DNA of 24,485 bases from a virus. Shown in pieces: positions 1,304 through 24,452 of the stretch. How positions within the stretch are numbered: position 1 is the stretch's first letter; each line of letters starts with the position of its first letter. A model generated the notes under the pieces. That model saw only the letters and a list, made by a program, of their open reading frames with translations, was not told the origin of the DNA and did no database searches. The stretch spans positions 1-24,485 of IMG/VR virus record IMGVR_UViG_3300035698_012721. One strand, 5' to 3'. Made by a program: the position numbers and the translations under genes.

Positions 1304-3136
1304 CTAATTATCTTTTCCTTCTAATTCTTTAACTCTACCATTTAAATCTTTTACTAGTTCACAAAGATAAGCTATTACAGAATTATGTGTAGCATCATAA
1401 CCATTTTTTTCAGTCATCCTAATATATGGAAACTGCTTAAATTTTTCTTTATTCTTATCATTTAAAATATAGCCTAATCTTTTTATACTTTTCTCATCTT
1501 CTGTTTTATACCTATAAGAAGCAAGTCTAGGTAAACATCCATAATCTAATTTACCTTTATAATATTCAATATCTTTCTTTATAGAATACTTACTGACTGA
1601 AGGATATCCTGCTGCCCATACATCATCATAATAATTAACTGAATCTCCTACATCATGAATATTTGGTGTATTTGTAATAACATCACCTTGAACTTGTATG
1701 TTTCCATAAAAAGTTGTATCTTGCACACTATCTATCTTTATAGCTTCTACACTACCTGTAAAAATAGATATTGTATTTGCTGCAGAAAGATTAAGGTAAT
1801 TTGCTCCTGTAGGTTCTAAGAATAGTTTTGCACCTGATGCAACCCCAACTCCCCAAACTGTCTTATCCATATAAAAGACTTGTGATCCATCAACATAAAA
1901 ATCAATTTGTGTTGGCAAACTTGAAACTATGTAAGTATTTCCAACATTTAAATAAAGCTTTTTAGTTGCAGTAATCTTTACATCTAAAGTACTATCAAAC
2001 TCTATACTTGTAGTACTTATCTGTACAGATTCATTATTATTTATATATAAACTCATCGTATCTACTGCATTTGAAACTATATAAGTATCTAAATCACTAT
2101 GAAGATATAAACGTTTTGCAGTTGTTACTTTGATATGTCCAGTAGAAATAAGTCCAGCTACTGTATATTCTTCTGTTTCATCTAACTTAGCAGCAGTAAC
2201 TGCATCATCTTCTAACTTTATTGTTGTAACAGCTGCAATACCTATTTTACCTGTAGTAACAGCTAAATCACCTATTTTTCCTTCTGTAACAGAAAGTGCA
2301 GCTATTTTAGTTTCTGTTACTGCACTTGCAACAATTTTTCCCGCTGTTACAGCATTCGAAGCAATTTTATCAGCTGTTACTGCATCATTTATTATTTGTG
2401 TAACTCCTACTGCACTTGCTGCAATTTTTGCTGTAGTTACAGCAGTACTAGCTATCTTAGCTGTAGATACTGCAAGATCAGCTATCTTAGCTGTAGATAC
2501 TGCACCATCTACTAAATTAATTGTAGCTGTTAATATTGTATCAGAATTTAAAGATAATGCATCCTGACTTGCTATACTAAATATTATAATTGCTCCTGCT
2601 CTTGTTGCATAACCTATATAAACACAATCAGAAGAAAGTGCTACTTTAGTATCAGCTAATTCAATCTCATACCCATCTTTCCAACTATAAAAAAATCTCT
2701 TTCCTGTGTTTGGATGTAAAGAATAATTAATAGGAGTTGTAGGAGTACCACTATTAGCATACAATAAATATTTTATCCCTATATATTTTGTAGCTCCATC
2801 AGTTATCGGTATACTCTGAGAACCAGTCGATTTAGGTGTTGGTGTTGTACTACTTAAACCATCACTAGTTGTTTCATCAGGATTATCAGCATCATAAGTC
2901 ACAAGAGAAGAAATCTCTATTCTTTCTCCACTCTTATAAGCTACACCAATTCCAACTGTAAAAGTATCATCTCCATTATCAGATAATTCAAAAGGAGTAG
3001 ATCCTGCTACAAGCAAAATACCATCTGTAAAAAGATCGTCCATTCTTTCTTTAATAGCTTCTTCTTTGGCTGTTTGAAGCCATTCCATATTATCTACTAT
3101 TATCTCTTGACCATCATGTAAGGGTAGTCTTTTCAC
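1304..3136 (-). CDS. Tail fibre with decapeptide-repeat stalk and S74 chaperone domain
   Basis: Receptor-binding fibre of 610 residues. Residues 1-200 form a domain shared with the next gene (KRLPLHDGQEIIVDN, EEAIKERMDD, TTPTPKSTG, NYSLHPNTGKR, SSDCVYIGY), probably the virion attachment end. Residues 211-320 are eleven consecutive ten-residue repeats (pattern xAVTTAKIxx). Beta repeats then occur (AKRLYLHSDLDTYIVSNAVD, KKLYLNVGNTYIVSS). The C-terminus (about 500-610) looks like the S74 intramolecular chaperone: SKYSIKKDI with S515 and K520 at the catalytic Ser-Lys places, RLGYILND, and a terminal coiled segment (HNSVIAYLCELVKDLNGRVK). The chaperone is expected to fold the trimer and cleave itself off. 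The start is GTG at 3136, with GAGGT six bases upstream. The ASP-x-ARG of the usual motif is replaced by K-Y-S, so autocleavage is uncertain. Confidence 0.8.
   Translation of the reverse strand: MKRLPLHDGQEIIVDNMEWLQTAKEEAIKERMDDLFTDGILLVAGSTPFELSDNGDDTFTVGIGVAYKSGERIEISSLVTYDADNPDETTSDGLSSTTPTPKSTGSQSIPITDGATKYIGIKYLLYANSGTPTTPINYSLHPNTGKRFFYSWKDGYEIELADTKVALSSDCVYIGYATRAGAIIIFSIASQDALSLNSDTILTATINLVDGAVSTAKIADLAVSTAKIASTAVTTAKIAASAVGVTQIINDAVTADKIASNAVTAGKIVASAVTETKIAALSVTEGKIGDLAVTTGKIGIAAVTTIKLEDDAVTAAKLDETEEYTVAGLISTGHIKVTTAKRLYLHSDLDTYIVSNAVDTMSLYINNNESVQISTTSIEFDSTLDVKITATKKLYLNVGNTYIVSSLPTQIDFYVDGSQVFYMDKTVWGVGVASGAKLFLEPTGANYLNLSAANTISIFTGSVEAIKIDSVQDTTFYGNIQVQGDVITNTPNIHDVGDSVNYYDDVWAAGYPSVSKYSIKKDIEYYKGKLDYGCLPRLASYRYKTEDEKSIKRLGYILNDKNKEKFKQFPYIRMTEKNGYDATHNSVIAYLCELVKDLNGRVKELEGKDN
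2177..2506 (-). repeat. Eleven 30-bp coding repeats (10-residue units) in the fibre stalk
   Basis: Residues 211-320 of the S74 fibre are exactly eleven ten-residue units, from GAVSTAKIAD to DAVTAAKLDE, with no spacer. The core is (A/S)V(S/T)xxKI; the fourth (GVTQI) and eighth to ninth units are diverged. The period is 30 bp with strongly similar but not identical DNA. Confidence 0.85.
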
Positions 3137-3138
3137 TT

Positions 3139-3759
3139 TTATACCTCTTCAAAATGTACCCAATCTGGATTTTTAAAATCAGCCCCACAACGTAAACCTA
3201 AATCTCTTCCAATCTGAGCAAGTTCTTCATAATCAGGTACTTCATTATTATTAACATTTACTTTAGTCCAAATAGGTTTGCCTTCATATAAAACAGCTAT
3301 ATCAAAAGCTGTTACTAAACCTCCAGGACGTTTAGGAATATGTTTACTCTTATGAGTCCAAGTAACTTTGTAAGAATTTTCTTTTTCACTTATTAAATAC
3401 ATACCTGCTTGTTTTCTTAAATTATTTGTTTTTGCAAAACTTTCTCTTCCTTGAGCAAATAAAGCTCTTTGCATTAACTTTGTTCTGTCTGTACAAGTAA
3501 CTATAATAGGAATACCAATACCTAAAGCTCTACGATAAAACTCTTTTAATTTTTCATAAAGTGTAGGAGTTAAGCTATTTAAACTAACTCTCTTTAATGC
3601 AGTAATTTCTAATTCAATGATTGCTTCTTTAAATACAAGTTTCTCTTCTACAACAGGCACAACAATCTTTTCTTTTGGTTCAAGAGAAGGTAAAGGTTTA
3701 AATTTTTCTTTTCTAAACAAGTTTTTTATCCACTCAATAATCTTAGTAATATTTATCAC
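3139..3759 (-). CDS. Endolysin, M15-family L-Ala-D-Glu or D-Ala-D-Ala type peptidase
   Basis: Peptidoglycan peptidase of 206 residues (215 if started at ATG 3786). In 215-residue numbering, zinc ligand signatures are SKH (H149), TAFDI (D162) and the C-terminal DWVHFEE (H211), matching the SxH...AxD...HxE layout of VanY/CwlK-like M15 enzymes. Between H149 and D162 there are 12 residues, about six more than the compact SxHxxGxAxD motif. GTG at 3759 is chosen because AGGAGG lies eight bases before it; the alternative ATG gives MFGIEEVRV in front. No signal peptide or separate cell-wall binding domain is seen, so release depends on the holin. The N-terminal 70 residues (basic, Pro-rich) are not assigned. 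Substrate bond is inferred from the family, not proven. Confidence 0.85.
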   Translation of the reverse strand: MINITKIIEWIKNLFRKEKFKPLPSLEPKEKIVVPVVEEKLVFKEAIIELEITALKRVSLNSLTPTLYEKLKEFYRRALGIGIPIIVTCTDRTKLMQRALFAQGRESFAKTNNLRKQAGMYLISEKENSYKVTWTHKSKHIPKRPGGLVTAFDIAVLYEGKPIWTKVNVNNNEVPDYEELAQIGRDLGLRCGADFKNPDWVHFEEV

Positions 3760-3767
3760 TACCCTTA

Positions 3768-3773
3768 CCTCCT
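3768..3773 (-). promoter_or_regulatory. Ribosome binding site deciding the endolysin start
   Basis: AGGAGG on the minus strand lies eight bases before GTG at 3759 and inside the reading frame that begins at ATG 3786. The ATG at 3786 has no good site upstream. The consensus site therefore supports the GTG start. Confidence 0.7.
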
Positions 3774-3785
3774 CTATCCCAAACA

Positions 3786-4139
3786 TTAATCAACCACAAT
3801 TTCTGAAACAGGTATACCCAATTTGTCAGCAATAGGCTTTAAAATCTTAATAAGCTTATTGTGCAAAACGTCATCTGCTTTAGTCTTAGTCCATTTAACA
3901 ATAGTCCTAGCAAGCGTGTATATACCTGCAAGTATACCACTAATCACCATTATCTTAACCATCAATGCATCAGGAATAAAACCCCATAGATTCAGAATAA
4001 TAGGTACAGCTTGTGACAATACTGCAAGCCAAAATTCACTTGTCCAAATGCCTTTAGAATTCATTTTTGTCTCCTTAATTTTTTTAATTAGCTTTTTAAT
4101 AGATAAAAAAGCTTTAATGTACATCCACCACTTCTTCAT
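3786..4139 (-). CDS. Holin, with two candidate starts
   Basis: Small membrane protein (117 residues) next to the endolysin, expected to open the inner membrane for lysis. Two hydrophobic segments are visible at about 37-55 (WLAVLSQAVPIILNLWGFI) and 58-81 (ALMVKIMVISGILAGIYTL then ARTIV), followed by a charged C-terminal tail. The sequence around IWTSEFWLAVLSQA resembles several phage holin families. The ATG at 4139 has AAGGAGG (4144-4150) four bases upstream. A second in-frame ATG at 4064 (residue 26) has AAGGAG (4071-4076) six bases upstream and would give a 92-residue form lacking the basic leader MKKWWMYIKAFLSIKKLIKK. The leader is strongly positive, like antiholin N-termini. Its stop overlaps an upstream alternative start of the endolysin as TAATG. 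Confidence 0.7.
   Translation of the reverse strand: MKKWWMYIKAFLSIKKLIKKIKETKMNSKGIWTSEFWLAVLSQAVPIILNLWGFIPDALMVKIMVISGILAGIYTLARTIVKWTKTKADDVLHNKLIKILKPIADKLGIPVSEIVVD
4071..4076 (-). promoter_or_regulatory. Internal ribosome binding site for the short holin form
   Basis: AAGGAG followed by ACAAAA and ATG (4064) inside the holin frame. This near-consensus site at six-base spacing is unlikely by chance immediately before an in-frame ATG that starts a two-segment holin of usual size. Confidence 0.65.
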
Positions 4140-4257
4140 TTTACCTCCTTTTTATTGTAGTATCAAAACATTACTTTCTACCTCAGTACTAACTCCACTT
4201 CTTCATTTTACCTCCTTTTTATTGAAGCATCAAAACATTACTTTCTACCTCAGTACT
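4128..4257. repeat. 67-bp tandem direct duplication at the adhesin-holin junction
   Basis: Copy 1 begins at 4128 and copy 2 at 4195, with period 67. Over the 63 bases of 4128-4190 and 4195-4257 I count two mismatches. Each copy, on the minus strand, contains the adhesin C-terminus coding (STEVESNVL, then M or I, L, Q, stop), AAGGAGG, and ATGAAGAAGTGG. Copy 2 supplies the real adhesin end and copy 1 supplies the real holin start. Confidence 0.95.
4189..4206 (-). CDS. Five-codon decoy/leader ORF (MKKWS) before the holin
   Basis: The duplication places an ATG with a perfect copy of the holin Shine-Dalgarno (AAGGAGG, 4211-4217; four bases TAAA before ATG) just after the adhesin stop. It reads ATGAAGAAGTGGAGTTAG, the first four codons of the holin, and then stops, 67 bases upstream of the holin ATG and out of frame with it. 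It could act as a translated leader that engages ribosomes before the lysis genes, or be an inert duplication scar. Translation is plausible from the strong site; a function is conjecture. Confidence 0.5.
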   Translation of the reverse strand: MKKWS

Positions 4258-7200
4258 ACTACCACTTTCATAACCTAATAAACCATTATTAAAAATATTT
4301 GTTGCTTCTGCAGAAGTTAAGACTCTTTTAAATACTGCAACCTCATCAAAATAACCATTTACAAATCCAGTTTGCCCTATATCCATACATCCTATTCTTA
4401 TAACATTATCAGTCATTCCTGAATAACTAAAACCACTTGAACTTACTAATGTTCCAGTAGTACTATTAAGATATATAGCAGCAGAATTAGTAGCTGTATT
4501 CCACGTAAAAACAACATGATTCCAAATGCTGTTAAATTCAAAGACTGATGTCTCAAACTGATAGTTTCCACTCCCATCATCCACAACAATAGCTATACCA
4601 TCATCAGTACCATTTCTACATATTCTAAATTCATCATCCATATATATAAAAGTATAGTAATCATTTGAAGGTGATACATCTTGCCTAAACCAAAAACATA
4701 CAGAAAAACTTGAATCTGTTACATTTGTAGCAGTAGAAAGAGTTATATAATCATCTACACCATCAAAAAGGAAATTTCCTGTAGAATAAATACCTGGAAC
4801 AGTTACATTTGTATAATTAGGTTCACCTGCTGCTTTTAGTGCTCCATCAAGACTATTTTTTGATTGATCTATTGTAGGATTTACATCTTGATCCATAGGA
4901 TATGCAAATAAGCAATCTGCATCTTGTGTATAATTAGGACTAGGATAATTAGGAACAGGTATGGGTACAGTAACAGTATCAGAAGTAGAACCAATTGCTG
5001 TCCACCAACCATCAGGTAAAAGCATTTCATAAGTCTCTATATCAGACTGACCAAACCATTTAGCTACCCACCAAAATTTGTCTCCGAATTGACTCATTGT
5101 AGCAAAACCCTCTGCATAATATTCATCAAAAACATTATACATATGACCTAATCTCCAAACAGTAGGATTTGTTACATCCTTATCAACTAACTCTATCATA
5201 AGTAATTGATTATCTCCCCAAGCAGCTGGATAAGAAGAAGCAGGAGATTTATAAGTAGATACTAAATTCCATCCAGGAGTAGATTCAGGCATTCTTGCAA
5301 AGTGAAATCCATTACCATATCCCATATCAGGATGTTCAAACATTCTAATATCTCCTCTCATTACATCCCACCTTGTATCCCACGCATCCCCACCAGTTTG
5401 AATATCTGTAGCTTCTAACCAATCTGTTTTATTATTCTGAAATACATACATTAAATTACCATCGTAATCCCAACCCCAGCCACCATGAGTCTGATCAGGT
5501 GCAACTTTTTGAGGATTTGTAAAATCTAGATCCCATACATATACCCCATCAAATAATGTACCTATATCTAATCCTAAATCACCATCATCATAAGCTGAAT
5601 CATCCCAAGCAAAAGCAAGCAAAAGTAAACATCTACTTCCATCAGGAGACATATCTACCATATTAGGTGTAGGTAATTTTGATCTACCACCCCCTAAAGC
5701 TAGATAATCTGCATAATCTAAGGTACCTAAAATAGTATCAGTTTGTTTGTCATATGTTATAATAGCATGCATAGCATTAGTACCATTAAGATAAGGACCT
5801 TTAACCATCCAACACCAATACCTACCAGATTCATCACAATCACCTTCTACATCATTATGAATTATTCCCTGAGAAGGAAATTCAACAGAAAAATCATGTA
5901 CAGTTGTCGCAGTATCTGTTACTATATTCCACTCCATAAAAGACATACCATTTACAAGGTAAATTAAATCAGGATCAACTTTACTCCACCTTAATTCAGA
6001 ACTTTCTTGAGTATTTATAGATTGATTAGGTACACCATCAATAGTTGTCTTAGCAGGAAAAACCATAATAAGTTCATAAGTTATAGCATTATATAATAAA
6101 GAATCTGGATTTCCTACAGTTTTTTGAAATATTAAACGAGTTCCATCACAATTAAGAGGAGACCATCTACTATATATAGGTACAGCCATATCACTACCTG
6201 CATCACTTGCTTCAGTAACCCTAGAAAAAGTTGTATTAAATGTTGAATCTTTCCTGGATTCAAATAAATCAGGGTATCCAGAAGACTCATTTACAATGTA
6301 ATGAGTCTCAGTTACATTATAATCAAAAACTTCAACAGTTGGAGTAACAAAAGTTTCTGAACTTATTATATTAGTATAGGCTGTAGTTATAGCATCTCCA
6401 TTATATCCTCTTACTCTTATAAAATAAACAGAACTACCAAATAATCCTGTAAAAGTATAATTCTGACTTGCAACATTATTTGTAGAAACATTAGTAGAGA
6501 AAGATGCATCATCTGCAATTATAGCATCATAATTCGTTCCACCATTCCCCGTCCAAGTTACAGTCATACTCGAATATCCTACATCACTTACAGTTAATCC
6601 TGTAGGAGCATTAGCAAAGGTATATAATGATATAACATTAGATGAATCAGAATTTCCTTCTGTTACATATGCAACTACATAATATTGAAATAAAGTATTA
6701 TCATCTAAACCACTCTGATTCCAAGTTAGAGTATCAGCAGCTAATGTCTGCATAATACCACCTGTTGAACTATATACTTTAAATCCATCTTCACCTGTTA
6801 CATTATCCCAAGACCATGCAATACTTCCTGTACTTTGAACAACACCAGCAAAATTTGTAGGTGCATCAGGAAAAGGATTTGCTACTGTGGTTGTAGAAAC
6901 AGAAGAAGTAAATATTGTATAGACTGTATCTCCATTATATCCTCTTACCTTCCACCAATAAGTAGTCAACTCTAATAAACTAGCAAATGTAGTTGTCTGC
7001 TCACTCAAAGTATAAGTAGTTATAGTTGTTGAAAAATCTGTTGTTGTATCCATTATTATCTGATAACCTGTTCCATCACCAGACCAAGATAATGTAGCAC
7101 TTGAATAAAATACATCTACTATACTTAAACTAGTTGGAACATTAGCAAAAGTATATTTTAATATAGCACTAGAAGCAGAAGATTCTCCCTGTTCATCCCA

Positions 7201-8367
7201 AGACTTTATATAATATTGAAAGCTAGTATTAGCAGTTAAACTAGATTCTATCCAATAAGTTACTCCTATAGATAAAACTTGTACTACTGTATCTGAAGTT
7301 GAACTATATACTCTATATCCATCTTCTCCACTTATATCATCCCAACCCCATTCAATAGAACTTATACTTTTAACTGTACCAGAAAAACTTGTAGGTGTAG
7401 GTGGACCAATTGCCGTATATTCATCAGCACCTATATCCCAAATACCTGTTACTGTTTCTGAATCGATATCTACATCATATGGACTACCTAAATCTGTTCC
7501 AGCATTATACAAATCTGCAGCATTGTTTTTAATATGTAAATTTTCACTTGCTGCTACAGTACTTACAAAATTATCATAAGCATTTTTAACAGAAAGATTA
7601 TTAGATCCTGGCATTGCACTATTATCACTTATACAATTATATCCTGAAGAAGCTGAACCTGTATTATCATAAAAATCACCATAATCTATTGAATCAAATA
7701 TAGCATTACCTATCATCACATCTGTAGCATTATTTGTACGTATACCATGAGAACATTTAAAAAATGTATTATAATAAACTAATGTTCCTCCTCCACCATT
7801 AAGTCTAATACCTCCTTCAAATTCATCAGCACAACCATATATAATATTTCTATATATTTGAGAATTAGAATTATTACCTCCCTGTATTCCTTGAACATTA
7901 CTAGAATCATGACCATCTATAAGATTATATCTAATTGTAGTATTAGGATTATATGTTGTGATACCTGTAGAGCTACCCGAATCTCCTTTAGGATAAATCT
8001 GTAACCATTCTACAATTACATAAGCATCCTGTATAATAATAACTGTACCATCATCAGAACTAACTATACTGCTTTTTGTTATGTCCCATATACCATTATG
8101 TCTTAAACTCTCTGGAACTGTTATCTTAATATAATGATCTACATCAGTAGTTGAACCATTAATAGTAACACTGCCAGTCAATACACCATAAACTTCTACT
8201 ACTTCTGCAGTATCTAAACTTACAAGATTTCCATCAACATCATCTTCCCACTCCTGTAGTGTTTCATAATCTTTTCCTGAACCAACTGTACTTAAGTTAA
8301 CAGTTACAGCAAAAAGATTAGGTAGAAAGAATAAAGTAAATAATAAAGATAGAAATAGTTTTTTCAT
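4219..8367 (-). CDS. Giant modular adhesin: signal peptide, beta-helix, FnIII x4, propeller-like region, LamG
   Basis: Secreted-type or virion adhesin of 1382 residues. Residues 1-20 (MKKLFLSLLFTLFFLPNLFA) are a clear Sec signal. Residues about 21-318 look like a right-handed beta-helix: GSGKDYETLQEWEDDVDG, then strand ladders such as TIRYNLIDGHDSSN and IYRNIIYGCADEFEGG, ending in IWDIGADEY. Four fibronectin III domains follow (about 322-408, 409-497, 500-585, 586-676), arranged as two copies of a two-domain unit. Residues about 680-1120 contain propeller-like signatures (MVDMSPDGSRCLLL, HGGWGWDYDGNLMYVF). A C-terminal LamG domain covers about 1151-1366 (FLFDGVDDYITLST, IWNHVVFTWNTATNSAAIYL, GYFDEVAVFKRVLTSAE). 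AAGGGA overlaps the end of the previous gene, two bases upstream. Glycan binding is inferred from the LamG and beta-helix; which surface carries it is unknown. Confidence 0.75.
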   Translation of the reverse strand: MKKLFLSLLFTLFFLPNLFAVTVNLSTVGSGKDYETLQEWEDDVDGNLVSLDTAEVVEVYGVLTGSVTINGSTTDVDHYIKITVPESLRHNGIWDITKSSIVSSDDGTVIIIQDAYVIVEWLQIYPKGDSGSSTGITTYNPNTTIRYNLIDGHDSSNVQGIQGGNNSNSQIYRNIIYGCADEFEGGIRLNGGGGTLVYYNTFFKCSHGIRTNNATDVMIGNAIFDSIDYGDFYDNTGSASSGYNCISDNSAMPGSNNLSVKNAYDNFVSTVAASENLHIKNNAADLYNAGTDLGSPYDVDIDSETVTGIWDIGADEYTAIGPPTPTSFSGTVKSISSIEWGWDDISGEDGYRVYSSTSDTVVQVLSIGVTYWIESSLTANTSFQYYIKSWDEQGESSASSAILKYTFANVPTSLSIVDVFYSSATLSWSGDGTGYQIIMDTTTDFSTTITTYTLSEQTTTFASLLELTTYWWKVRGYNGDTVYTIFTSSVSTTTVANPFPDAPTNFAGVVQSTGSIAWSWDNVTGEDGFKVYSSTGGIMQTLAADTLTWNQSGLDDNTLFQYYVVAYVTEGNSDSSNVISLYTFANAPTGLTVSDVGYSSMTVTWTGNGGTNYDAIIADDASFSTNVSTNNVASQNYTFTGLFGSSVYFIRVRGYNGDAITTAYTNIISSETFVTPTVEVFDYNVTETHYIVNESSGYPDLFESRKDSTFNTTFSRVTEASDAGSDMAVPIYSRWSPLNCDGTRLIFQKTVGNPDSLLYNAITYELIMVFPAKTTIDGVPNQSINTQESSELRWSKVDPDLIYLVNGMSFMEWNIVTDTATTVHDFSVEFPSQGIIHNDVEGDCDESGRYWCWMVKGPYLNGTNAMHAIITYDKQTDTILGTLDYADYLALGGGRSKLPTPNMVDMSPDGSRCLLLLAFAWDDSAYDDGDLGLDIGTLFDGVYVWDLDFTNPQKVAPDQTHGGWGWDYDGNLMYVFQNNKTDWLEATDIQTGGDAWDTRWDVMRGDIRMFEHPDMGYGNGFHFARMPESTPGWNLVSTYKSPASSYPAAWGDNQLLMIELVDKDVTNPTVWRLGHMYNVFDEYYAEGFATMSQFGDKFWWVAKWFGQSDIETYEMLLPDGWWTAIGSTSDTVTVPIPVPNYPSPNYTQDADCLFAYPMDQDVNPTIDQSKNSLDGALKAAGEPNYTNVTVPGIYSTGNFLFDGVDDYITLSTATNVTDSSFSVCFWFRQDVSPSNDYYTFIYMDDEFRICRNGTDDGIAIVVDDGSGNYQFETSVFEFNSIWNHVVFTWNTATNSAAIYLNSTTGTLVSSSGFSYSGMTDNVIRIGCMDIGQTGFVNGYFDEVAVFKRVLTSAEATNIFNNGLLGYESGSSTEVESNVLMLQ
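6340..7404 (-). repeat. Duplicated fibronectin III pair inside the giant adhesin
   Basis: Residues about 322-499 and 500-676 are two copies of the same A-B pair. Domain A reads PTSFSGTVKSISSIEWGWDD in the first copy and PTNFAGVVQSTGSIAWSWDN in the second, each followed by a GEDG and a VYSST. Domain B starts FANVPTSLSIVDVFYSSATL and FANAPTGLTVSDVGYSSMTV, with RGYNGD near each end. This is a duplication of about 178 residues, now diverged. Confidence 0.75.
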
Positions 8368-11911: not shown

Positions 11912-13702
11912 TTAATTCACAGGTATATAAGGTTTCCAAATTGTAGAAGTTTGACCCCAATATAATCCCCCACCCCAGTAATCAGTTCCCCAAGCAACTA
12001 AAGAAGTTTCTGGTGCTACATACGATATATATACAGTCACATTTGCAGGTTTTATTTTACTTACAAACGATTCAATTAAAGCATGTCTAGTTGTCAAATT
12101 AAAAGCATTGTAAACAGTCAAATTTAAACCTAAAGCCTTACTCCATTTAGAATTGGGTTGGGGTGTAGGAGTTAATGTAAGTGCATCAGAACTTAATCCA
12201 TCTCCTTCATTATATAATGTCGATATATCACTACTTGGTAATGCATTCATAAAAAACATAATGTCACTAATAGAGCCATCAGCAAAATAATTAATATAAC
12301 CAGCAGATTTACCTATTAAAAGACGACCAGAATTAGATACACTTTCAAGATCTGCTAAAGCATAACTAGTTGAACTTAAAGTCTCTTTTACTCCATTAAC
12401 ATATAAATCTACATATGTATTTGTTCTATCAATTACTGCAGTAATCATATACCATTGATCATTATTCAAAACAGTAGTACCTGTTACAGCACAAAAATGA
12501 GATGTAGGCCATCCAGAATATCCTAAATTAACATAAACCTTTCCACTAACTACAGATAATCCTAGATAATGAGAATAACTAGAATTTTTAATAATGATAG
12601 GGAAAATAGTATTATCATCCATTTTAATCCAAGCATTCATAGAAAAATTACCTAAACCTGGATTAAGTACATTTCCACAATCAACATAATCTGCAGCTCC
12701 ATCTAAATGAAGACATTTATCTATAACACCTGCTTCACTAATATCCTCTGTATTTTTACCCCCCATCAACGTACCATGATAAGAATTAGTACCACTATCA
12801 ACTACCTGAGTACTATTTGTATCATCATACATTTTCCAATATCCTTCTAATGAAGAAGCTAATGCAGCTATATCTCTCAATCTATAATATAAAGAAGCAT
12901 CTGTAAAAGGATTTTCAGGTTGTACATAACTACTTCCATACGGTACATCTAGATCTTGTGTACTTCTAATTATCCAACCATACCTATTCCTAATATAATC
13001 GAGAGAAGGATCTAAACCTAAGATAGCTTTAATAAATCGCTTTAAAGCTCCTTCAGTGCCTCCATACAAATAAGCATTCCATAATTCAAGAAGTTCTCTC
13101 CTATATTCTATTACAGGTCTAGCAATATTTCTTTCATACTCCATAAGTTTACCTAAAGTATCATACAAACTAGAATCTTGTAATTTATAAAAATTGATTC
13201 CTTCACTTACACAATCAGTTTCTCTTTTAAAATCTTGAATTTCTCTCGCCCACAACTCTACAATTTTTAAAGTTTGTGTAATTCCTTCTTTAGCATATAT
13301 ACTATCATCAGGCATCAAACCATATAACATTTGCATGTCATTATACCAAGTAACTTTAGAAAGGTTAAATAATAAAGAATCACTCCAATCACTTAAATAG
13401 TCAAGAGAGTTCACTCTCACTCTATAATAAAATGATACATCCTCAAAAACTTCCATAGCTTTAAAAACAAAAGCTTTAAAGAAATAACCATTTTGATAAT
13501 TTAAAATATTATTACTCGTTTTAACTAAATGTCTAAGATTAGAAGAATTAAAAGTATCTACTATATCCATTTGCACTTCACAATCAAAATTACCTATAGA
13601 TTCCCCAACAGCAGGATTAATCCTCCAAGATATTGCATAAGTATCTCTTGTAGGTTTATAAGTCATTAAGTCTGATGGTACTATAACAGATGCCTGTGTC
13701 AT
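11912..13702 (-). CDS. gpI-like baseplate/tail protein with inserted LamG domain
   Basis: Wedge or tail protein linking baseplate to fibres. Residues about 1-115 look fibronectin III-like (FYYRVRVNSLDYLSDWSDSL). The stretch 117-250 matches the P2 gpI-type helical part (YGLMPDDSIYAKEG, YLYGGTEGALKRFIKAILGL). A LamG/concanavalin-type sandwich spans about 284-502: EGYWKMYDDTNST, CLHLDGAADYVDCGN, FSMNAWIKMDD, WYMITAVIDRTNTYVDLYVN, and YFADGSISDIMFFMNALPS. The tail-protein sequence then resumes (KWSKALGLNLTVYNAFNLTT) and ends in a Trp/Gly-rich segment (WGTDYWGGGLYWG). The insertion probably adds a glycan-binding surface. No Shine-Dalgarno precedes the ATG; the ATGA overlap with the previous gene suggests coupling. 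The gpI assignment comes from position and the helical part and is less certain than the LamG call. Confidence 0.75.
   Translation of the reverse strand: MTQASVIVPSDLMTYKPTRDTYAISWRINPAVGESIGNFDCEVQMDIVDTFNSSNLRHLVKTSNNILNYQNGYFFKAFVFKAMEVFEDVSFYYRVRVNSLDYLSDWSDSLLFNLSKVTWYNDMQMLYGLMPDDSIYAKEGITQTLKIVELWAREIQDFKRETDCVSEGINFYKLQDSSLYDTLGKLMEYERNIARPVIEYRRELLELWNAYLYGGTEGALKRFIKAILGLDPSLDYIRNRYGWIIRSTQDLDVPYGSSYVQPENPFTDASLYYRLRDIAALASSLEGYWKMYDDTNSTQVVDSGTNSYHGTLMGGKNTEDISEAGVIDKCLHLDGAADYVDCGNVLNPGLGNFSMNAWIKMDDNTIFPIIIKNSSYSHYLGLSVVSGKVYVNLGYSGWPTSHFCAVTGTTVLNNDQWYMITAVIDRTNTYVDLYVNGVKETLSSTSYALADLESVSNSGRLLIGKSAGYINYFADGSISDIMFFMNALPSSDISTLYNEGDGLSSDALTLTPTPQPNSKWSKALGLNLTVYNAFNLTTRHALIESFVSKIKPANVTVYISYVAPETSLVAWGTDYWGGGLYWGQTSTIWKPYIPVN
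12197..12853 (-). other. LamG domain coding segment inserted in the gpI-like gene
   Basis: Codes for residues about 284-502 of the gpI-like protein. The order of motifs (YWKMYDDT start, LHLDGAADYVDCGN, a WIK strand, QWYMITAVID, LYVNGVKETL, then SISDIMFFMNALPSSDI) is the usual LamG jelly roll as seen in viral and bacterial adhesins. Flanking sequence is non-LamG on both sides. Ends are approximate. Confidence 0.75.
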
Positions 13703-14450: not shown

Positions 14451-15875
14451 CTATGTAACAGTAATAACAAAACTATCAGCATCAGTCCAAGCATATTCAA
14501 GTTTACTAAAAGAAAGATCTGCTACTCCTGTCCCTACAGACCTTCTACATAATTTAGTAAAAGGTAATATTATATTATCTATAAATGAATGTTGCTGTCT
14601 TAAATAATATACAAGGTCCGATTGTTCTAATCTTTTTCCTAAATAAAGTGTATTAATATAAGACATTAAAGTACTTTTTATTTGATTCTCTGCAGAAGTA
14701 GAATCTATTCCCGAATAAAGAGTAACACTAAACGATATATCAACATAAGTCTTTTCCCCTTCACGCACTAAAATATTAGAAGCAATAAGTTTATTAGTAT
14801 CTGTATCTAAATCATCTTGTATCTCACCAATCAAACTATTATATGAATATGATATATTATAAGGTTCTCCTACTGAAGGCGCACCAGATATCCAAACAAT
14901 CTTATCTAATGCCTGATTAGATCTCCTATATTCACTATAAGTATCTTTAACAACTGAGAAATGTGTATCCTCAATATAAGTGTTGGTTGTACCAACAATC
15001 TGTATAACTTCATTAAGAGGAAGATTATCAAAGAAAACAGTAAGTCCATTAATATTAGAAAAGACTTCAGCTTGAATATCATTCTCAAGAGTCTGTCCAA
15101 TTATTATAACATCTACTTCATTACCATAGGCATTTCTTATACAATTATCTTCTCCAGAAGTAAGTACTACAGCATCAACAACTCCAGTTATTGCCTCTAC
15201 AAAACTTGCATAACCTGGTGCAGTTCCCAAAAGTCTTCCTTGAGAAGCAGTTATAATTCTTTGTGACAATAATGTATTAGTTTCTTCATCAGTACCACTA
15301 GTTAAAACACTTTTATTAGTTACTCCATCTACTCCTGTTATACCAGATAATACAGTTATAGCATTAATAGCTACATTACTACCTATTCCAGCTAAAGAAG
15401 CTTCTATACTTACATTTGCTTCATATCTATTAGTTTCAGTATTTAATTGAGTAGCCGTATTCAAATAAACTGTAGTTGTTGTTATAAAAGAATAATAAGA
15501 ACCATCTGAATTTCTTTGAGTTGATACTGTTATTCCCCCACTACCATCTTCGGCACCAATACGAATAGAAGTAGTAGGTTTAGTTAATTTGTAAAAAGTT
15601 ACTGATCCTGTAGCTTTAGTAGCATCTTTTCTAGCAAGATTCCAATTAGCAGCTAAATCATTCAATTGATCATCTTCCATATCACTTGCATAATTAATTG
15701 AATAACTCTTTCTAATAAGTTCTAAATCATCATAACTTAATTCTAAGATTGTAGCTACTGGATCAATAACTACATCCTTAACTACATTACCAGAAGAAAC
15801 ATCAATATCAGGTCTATAAGTCTGTAAATAGTTTATTAACGATTGAGCGATTGCTTCCTTAGTTTTTGAAGACAT
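14451..15875 (-). CDS. Baseplate J-like wedge protein (gp47/gpJ-like)
   Basis: Baseplate wedge component that connects hub to fibres and transmits the trigger for sheath contraction. The 474 residues carry the family pattern in order: an N-terminal helical part with VVIDPVATILELSYDDLEL, then DLAANWNLARKDATKATGSV, the beta domain with ASLAGIGSNVAINAITVLSG at about 159-178, GVDGVTNKSVLTSGTDEETN at 181-200, LLSQRIITASQGRLLGTAPG, then YASFVEAITGVVDAVVL. This GTDEE..L..RI motif is diagnostic for baseplate J proteins. The C-terminus (TLYLGKRLEQSDLVYYLRQQ) also fits. GGGAG lies seven bases before the ATG. Unusually, it precedes the gp25/W-like gene rather than following it. Confidence 0.9.
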   Translation of the reverse strand: MSSKTKEAIAQSLINYLQTYRPDIDVSSGNVVKDVVIDPVATILELSYDDLELIRKSYSINYASDMEDDQLNDLAANWNLARKDATKATGSVTFYKLTKPTTSIRIGAEDGSGGITVSTQRNSDGSYYSFITTTTVYLNTATQLNTETNRYEANVSIEASLAGIGSNVAINAITVLSGITGVDGVTNKSVLTSGTDEETNTLLSQRIITASQGRLLGTAPGYASFVEAITGVVDAVVLTSGEDNCIRNAYGNEVDVIIIGQTLENDIQAEVFSNINGLTVFFDNLPLNEVIQIVGTTNTYIEDTHFSVVKDTYSEYRRSNQALDKIVWISGAPSVGEPYNISYSYNSLIGEIQDDLDTDTNKLIASNILVREGEKTYVDISFSVTLYSGIDSTSAENQIKSTLMSYINTLYLGKRLEQSDLVYYLRQQHSFIDNIILPFTKLCRRSVGTGVADLSFSKLEYAWTDADSFVITVT

Positions 15876-22994: not shown

Positions 22995-24335
22995 TTATAC
23001 AGTATATAACCCAAAAGTTATATCTATCCACGTGAGTGTATACACAGGCTTAAATTCAAAATGTATCACTGCTTTTCTTCCATCCGCACTATCTTGTGCT
23101 ACTCTAATATTTCTACTCTCTACAAATACACTATCGTCTATTTTTTGTTCACAAAAACTCTTCACTGCAGCAACAAGTAAAGCATTTGTATTTGCTGTAA
23201 CATATTTTGAACCTATATAAGAATCAAGTAAAGTTCTAATATCTTTCTTAACTTGATTCTTAATAGAAACAACTTGTAACTCAATTTTATTTACATTAGC
23301 TGTATTTGTAGTTACTGCATGTCGAATCCTAAGTACACCACCTTTACTACCAACAACAGTTATTCCATTAGAAGCAAGATCATTCATTTCAGATTCTTTA
23401 TAAGGTGAAGTCTGAAGACTATCAATACCAGTTAATATTTTTCTTGTAAGAGGTTCAGCTTCATCATAGTTAGGATTAGCCATAATCCCCGCAAGGGCAG
23501 CACCTAAATATTGACCTGATACCTCTGTAGAAGCTTCTGTTTCCAATGTACTATCTTTTAAAGTTATCTTACAAACTGCAGGTGCCATTACAGTCACAAG
23601 TTCATTATTAAATGCAGCAGCTCTAACTTTTAAATTAGCTACAGAACTTGTCAAAGCTAATCCAGAAGTTAAAAATATTCTTTCTTTCTTCATCGTTTCA
23701 GAACTCATCTTATTTACATGAGAAAGAATATAAGCTTGCATTGTAGTAGATGTCATTCCTGGAGCAGATAATATATCTAAATCTTCTGCTTCTAATTTAT
23801 CAATTGCATTCTGCTGTTCTGTAACAGTACTATTAACTTGCTGTACACAAAGTACTTGAGAAGCTCCATTCTGAAAAGCAAGTTTAGCTGCAAGAGTAAT
23901 TTCACTTATAAAGCCATTATCTAATTCAGATCCATAAGCAGATCTTACATCATCAATAATGTAATACAAAGTAGGTGCATAATAAGTAGTACTCTTATCT
24001 CTCTTATAAGTAACATAATAAATAACTCCTACTGTAGGTTCTGATCCACCAGGAGACCAATCAATAGTTTCACCAGTAACAACATAATCAGTACCCAAAA
24101 CATAATCATAAAGTCCAGGAAGACTTCCTACACCTATAACAACACCAAGATCCCCAGTATCCAACCCAAGAGAATCTACTCCAGCTGCAACGCCTTTAGT
24201 AATCTCTACATTAGCAACTTGATAATTAGAGCTTCCTTTACCTGCAATACCCACAACTCTAGCAGAACCTAACAAAGCTACAGGTTGAGGCAATGCAACT
24301 TCTTTTACATATGCTCCTGGACCTTTATAAGTCAT
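22995..24335 (-). CDS. Tail sheath protein
   Basis: Contractile sheath subunit that polymerises around the tail tube and shortens to drive it through the host envelope. The N-terminus, TYKGPGAYVKEVALPQP followed by a GSARVVGIAGKG stretch, is typical of myovirus sheath proteins. So are the conserved C-terminal part, with a run of DSVFVESRNIRVAQDS, and the late beta strands ending in TWIDITFGLYTV. Length is about 446 residues, normal for compact sheath proteins. There are two in-frame ATGs. The upstream one (24341) directly abuts the GGAGG, whereas the one at 24335 has six bases of spacing, so 24335 is chosen. The tube gene follows after 20 bases, the usual sheath-tube order. Sheath identity is secure; subfamily was not determined. 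Confidence 0.9.
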   Translation of the reverse strand: MTYKGPGAYVKEVALPQPVALLGSARVVGIAGKGSSNYQVANVEITKGVAAGVDSLGLDTGDLGVVIGVGSLPGLYDYVLGTDYVVTGETIDWSPGGSEPTVGVIYYVTYKRDKSTTYYAPTLYYIIDDVRSAYGSELDNGFISEITLAAKLAFQNGASQVLCVQQVNSTVTEQQNAIDKLEAEDLDILSAPGMTSTTMQAYILSHVNKMSSETMKKERIFLTSGLALTSSVANLKVRAAAFNNELVTVMAPAVCKITLKDSTLETEASTEVSGQYLGAALAGIMANPNYDEAEPLTRKILTGIDSLQTSPYKESEMNDLASNGITVVGSKGGVLRIRHAVTTNTANVNKIELQVVSIKNQVKKDIRTLLDSYIGSKYVTANTNALLVAAVKSFCEQKIDDSVFVESRNIRVAQDSADGRKAVIHFEFKPVYTLTWIDITFGLYTV

Positions 24336-24452
24336 TTTCATCCTCCATTATAAAAAAACTGTTTATTAATACTCTTACAAATTTTTCCTATACATTCTAT
24401 ATACTATTAATAAAATTATAACCAAATTTAAACATATAATTATTTATAAATA
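24336..24452 (-). promoter_or_regulatory. AT-rich leader of the tail operon, possible promoter
   Basis: This is the longest intergenic stretch near the sheath and is almost purely A and T. On the minus strand it contains TATAAATA (24448 to 24441), matching the T4-type late promoter core, and further on TATAAT in the context GGTTATAAT. No good -35 hexamer is placed for the second motif. The first sits in the palindrome TATTTATAAATA, so it reads the same on both strands. No factor-independent terminator hairpin is visible. GGAGG lies six bases before the sheath ATG at 24335. A promoter here is plausible from position, but base composition alone could give these motifs. Confidence 0.3.

Follow-up and report, generated by a model that had tools for sequence, protein, structure and literature searches.

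A virus record of 24,485 bases (the window) carries, in tandem and on its minus strand, two copies of the junction between an adhesin-like gene and a probable holin gene. Most probably this arrangement reflects one small tandem duplication between AAGTGG words, with the five-codon open reading frame (ORF) MKKWS as a by-product and an effect on the holin that is probably mild. As an event, it is a microhomology-bounded tandem duplication, and it looks like an ordinary slippage scar and not a control device. Read in this way, the junction is an example of a copying slip between genes that yields a ribosome site and a mini-ORF at no cost, and a caution against taking such mini-ORFs for regulators.

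The record carries contractile-tail genes, including a sheath gene (22995-24341; named sheath homologues at about 25-28%) and a baseplate wedge gene (14451-15875; phrog_6, 1e-34). The adhesin-like ORF (4219-8367, minus strand), whose 3' end is duplicated, encodes 1382 residues with fn3 repeats and a C-terminal Laminin_G_3 domain and ends in a TAA stop at 4221-4219. It is followed on the same strand by the probable holin (3786-4139) and then by an endolysin with an M15-type peptidase (3139-3786; phrog_465, 3.8e-16), for which the Peptidase_M15_4 match (1e-4) lies just under the curated cut-off.

A direct-repeat search returned a 67-nucleotide repeat with 91% identity at a spacing of 67 (copies 4119-4185 and 4186-4252), and TRF reported an array at 4127-4267 with the same period and 93% matches. 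Read along the minus strand, the adhesin 3' end, an AAGGAGG sequence, and ATGAAGAAGTGG are each repeated at a distance of 67 bases. In a self-alignment at this offset, the best stretch of 63 columns contains 61 matches, exactly the two mismatches in 63 bases that the original prediction had given, as compared with a mean of 35 and a maximum of 38 in 200 dinucleotide shuffles of 3600-5600. This repeat is the best of its kind in the whole window (offsets 10-2000 scanned); ATGAAGAAGTGG has only these two minus-strand occurrences, and two of the three minus-strand AAGGAGG sequences lie within the duplication. The two adjacent copies extend to 73 columns, 68 of them identical, because AAGTGG is also present in the adhesin gene just before the first copy. 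Copy 1 (4195-4267, minus strand, aligned as 4267-4195) comprises the C-terminal codons of the adhesin, its stop, a Shine-Dalgarno (SD) sequence, and the MKKW codons, with AAGTGG at both ends; copy 2 (4128-4200, minus strand, aligned as 4200-4128) shares the middle AAGTGG with it.

This hexamer occurs three times at the exact period and forms both edges of the repeated unit. The upstream occurrence lies within the adhesin gene (4262-4267, minus strand) and the downstream one in codons 3-4 of the holin ORF (4128-4133, minus strand); the middle one, at the start of the mini-ORF (4200-4195), is exactly 67 bases from each. When breakpoint pairs separated by 40-159 bases are drawn at random from this window, the chance of at least 6 bases of junction microhomology is 0.0033. 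Microhomology at the junction is a usual signature of spontaneous rearrangements (PMC3411829), and the AAGTGG-bounded unit is, judged from its sequence, the signature of slippage or illegitimate recombination. The original prediction was right about the duplication, but it did not report the AAGTGG boundaries at both ends, which support the slippage scar that it had offered as one of its readings.

The ancestor would have had a single copy of the junction, in which two AAGTGG words stood 67 bases apart, one in the last codons of the adhesin and the other in codons 3-4 of the holin. One event between these words, by replication slippage or illegitimate recombination, would have copied the tail of the adhesin, the ribosome site, and the holin start, and in each copy the adhesin tail, SD, and start do follow one another without a break, as they must after a single event. 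The mini-ORF would then owe its ATG and SD to the holin start and its stop to serine codons of the adhesin that fall into a different frame. With the stop inherited in this way, MKKWS arises at no further cost, complete with ribosome site and early stop; a duplication with a period of 67 at this place leads to an immediate stop. The observed junction departs from the simplest product of such an event. An unmodified junction is predicted to read AAGTGG-TAGTAGTACT, with TAG directly after the copied start, whereas AAGTGG-AGTTAGTACT is observed, in which the out-of-frame adhesin codons are AGT TAG. The three columns that differ just after the middle AAGTGG (TAG versus AGT) would have to come from a subsequent change or from a slip that was not exact, which counts against a single clean slip. 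A relative with one copy of the junction, which would show the ancestral state directly, was not found in the collections searched. Two further substitutions are both located in the adhesin tail and leave the 30 bases of SD and start untouched; so small a number does not demonstrate constraint on the ribosome site amid drift elsewhere.

Known small tandem duplications between short direct repeats in bacteria and phages share with this one a repeat-bounded unit at the exact period, two copies, and no mobile element. The present unit differs from them in spanning a gene junction, so that a ribosome site and a start codon were copied, and its microhomology of 6 bases is shorter than the 11 or more of the verified chromosomal duplications in PMC3411829. 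A survey of 1.38 Mb of phage loci, mostly distantly related and including this window, contained six other arrays with a period of at least 40 and a match of at least 85%. One array accounts for two of the six, being present in two records, and another two are neighbors within a single locus; comparable arrays occur about once per 200-300 kb, which suggests that small tandem duplications of this kind are uncommon but ordinary. The uncultured jumbo phage LR745208 has a perfect tandem duplication of 127 bases within a reading frame (L008:4756-5014), which is either a recent slippage scar or an error of assembly.

Of greater interest than the duplication is the dual-start-like layout of the probable holin. 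Besides the start at 4139 behind AAGGAGG, the ORF has a second in-frame start that the original prediction missed, ATG 4064 (MNSKGIW...), 25 codons further on, which sits behind AAGGAGACAAAA with AAGGAG six bases upstream (anti-SD duplex -9.2 kcal/mol). The long form (3786-4139, minus strand; 117 residues) has two hydrophobic helices and a charged N-terminal extension of 25 residues, MKKWWMYIKAFLSIKKLIKKIKETK, with a net charge of +8 and a helical moment that is ordinary for its composition (reached by 12.7% of shuffles); the short form (3786-4064, minus strand) has 92 residues. With an SD before each start, both forms are plausible from the sequence and the layout is dual-start-like. In an AlphaFold model of the long form (mean pLDDT 70), helices span residues 2-28, 34-52, 59-84, and 90-107; the structure model had no significant fold match, and no convincing holin family match was present in Pfam, PHROG, or NCBIfam. 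The assignment as a holin is probable and is based on the two hydrophobic helices and on the endolysin directly downstream.

The mini-ORF ATG AAG AAG TGG AGT TAG (MKKWS and stop; 4189-4206, minus strand) has AAGGAGG four bases upstream of its ATG (SD1, 4211-4217, minus strand), and the long holin start has the same sequence (SD2, 4144-4150, minus strand). Both sites have an anti-SD duplex of -12.9 kcal/mol, surpassed among the sites listed only by a candidate GTG start of the endolysin (-13.3). The two start codons are 67 bases apart, which agrees with the earlier description of a five-codon ORF with the same strong ribosome site 67 bases ahead of the holin. That description had also noted that the period is not a multiple of three, and MKKWS is therefore out of frame with the holin. 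MKKWS starts 12 bases after the adhesin stop; the holin starts 49 bases after the stop of MKKWS and 79 after that of the adhesin. The likely side effect of the duplication is a longer gap between the adhesin stop and the holin start, 79 bases where there would have been 12. Ribosomes that finish the adhesin would now restart most easily on MKKWS, and the holin, with an identical SD of its own, would be initiated largely independently.

It is nevertheless conceivable that MKKWS is a functional translated leader, in which termination 49 bases before the holin makes its synthesis lower or later, or alters how much of the long form (4139) is made relative to the short form (4064). Its SD is as strong as that of the holin, its ATG follows the adhesin stop by 12 bases, and SD1 is predicted to be less accessible (0.37) than SD2 (0.64), though neither is closed. 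The ORF downstream has two in-frame starts with an SD before each, and an AAGGAGG-N3-9-ATG site that opens an ORF of 15 codons or fewer is rare (3 of 48 sites in 90 loci). We consider this reading unlikely, because every one of these features follows necessarily from the duplication itself, and because the holin, which retains its own full SD, is not dependent on reinitiation. The RNA structure is nothing special: the fold of 4290-4040 is no better than those of shuffles (minimum free energy z = 0.19), the junction RNA has no Rfam match, and the alternative structures by which an attenuator hides or exposes a downstream ribosome site are thus not seen. No terminator-like site was found in the junction region, and no signs of selection were found on the duplicate. 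Relatives that would show conservation were not found. The holin, endolysin, adhesin C terminus, and sheath as single queries, and the exact junction pattern, returned none in viral_contigs; no close relative of the holin, the adhesin end, or the junction was found in viral_contigs, genome_contigs, phages, or plasmids, and searches of the last two with the holin or with the junction DNA gave none; and the holin was absent at E <= 1 from all 38 whole records searched. Alignments of the sheath and wedge reached only distant myoviruses (best about 35% for the sheath and 32% for the wedge, IMGVR_UViG_3300009503_000039), and the endolysin had only weak matches of 37% or less. In genome_contigs, a first scan gave nothing and a second gave one short sheath-like match, in a Kerfeldbacteria MAG contig that shares no other protein convincingly with the window. 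The suggestion of a translated leader that times lysis is thus left unsupported by the RNA fold and by the two substitutions, and of the proposed "decoy start site" the start site with its SD is present, but "decoy" presumes a function. A function as a lysis timer is improbable, and it is more doubtful still that the duplication was kept because MKKWS brakes translation, tunes the ratio of the long charged holin (a possible antiholin) to the short one, and so sets the time of lysis. A functional MKKWS would amount to a lysis timer of a very simple translational kind.

The record is an IMG/VR virus record, and a metagenome assembler could have joined two strain variants of the junction head to tail; the copies differ slightly, as two strains might, and a search of viral_contigs with the exact pattern yielded no second assembly of the junction. 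We hold such an artefact to be quite unlikely, since the unit has true microhomology bounds and a diverged junction, unlike a simple bubble join. Adhesin arrays exist in phages, and copy 1 had also been proposed as the residue of a lost second adhesin with the same C terminus, here taken as deleted by recombination. The mini-ORF does start with MKK, like the adhesin signal peptide, but over 30 bases including the SD it matches the holin start and not the adhesin start, and the copies are not separated by any extra adhesin sequence. One duplication is the simpler account and, together with the microhomology, explains both edges; the lost adhesin was rejected as highly improbable. Almost no weight is given to the remaining reading, in which the short holin gains a promoter (TTGATA-17-TAAAAT, ending at 4138) from the copied segment. 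Consensus matches are present in both copies (10/12 for that ending at 4138 and 9/12 for its equivalent in copy 1), but the five matches in this AT-rich region compare with 5.6 expected in shuffles, and the promoter would already exist in the single-copy ancestor; it was rejected as a chance match.

Nothing directly comparable was found in the literature on holin leader peptides or on slippage duplications in phages. The probable holin shares with the dual-start motif of lambda S107/S105 and N4 gp62 (PMC12642591) two in-frame starts with their own SDs in a two-helix membrane protein beside an endolysin; the starts here are 25 codons apart as compared with two in those proteins, and the family match is lacking. 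MKKWS falls outside this motif because it is out of frame. It resembles the bar minigenes of phage lambda as a very short phage ORF. In cells deficient in peptidyl-tRNA hydrolase, the bar minigene, which reads Met-Ile-stop (AUA followed by UAA), is toxic (PMC8012679), whereas MKKWS has five codons, no AUA, and a UAG stop. In the RNA phage GA, as here, a lysis start lies close behind an upstream stop, but the GA lysis gene lacks an SD and relies entirely on ribosomes from upstream (PMC9955659), whereas the probable holin has a full SD. Were MKKWS to work at all, it would most resemble a minimal leader ORF.

Several observations concern the neighboring genes. The endolysin may start not at ATG 3786, where an SD is nearly lacking (-2.2 kcal/mol), but at a GTG near 3759 (minus strand), whose SD is the strongest of those listed (-13.3 kcal/mol). 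Laminin_G_3 is present in two minus-strand ORFs, one near the tail-tip genes (11912-13702; 7.4e-16) and the other the adhesin (4219-8367; 1.7e-17). The large ORFs of the tail-fibre region that begin at 8367 and 11521 (minus strand) have signal-peptide-like starts (MKKLFLSLLFTLFFLPNLFA... and MRKILLGLGLLACTTMASA...), which are unusual for virion proteins, and from these starts they may be secreted or host-derived adhesins. The ORF at 1304-3136 (minus strand) encodes a tail-fibre-like protein (phrog_892, 1.2e-16) with repeated AVTTAKIA-type motifs, mirrored by 30-base DNA repeats at 2225-2526, and its C-terminal stretch resembles an intramolecular chaperone.
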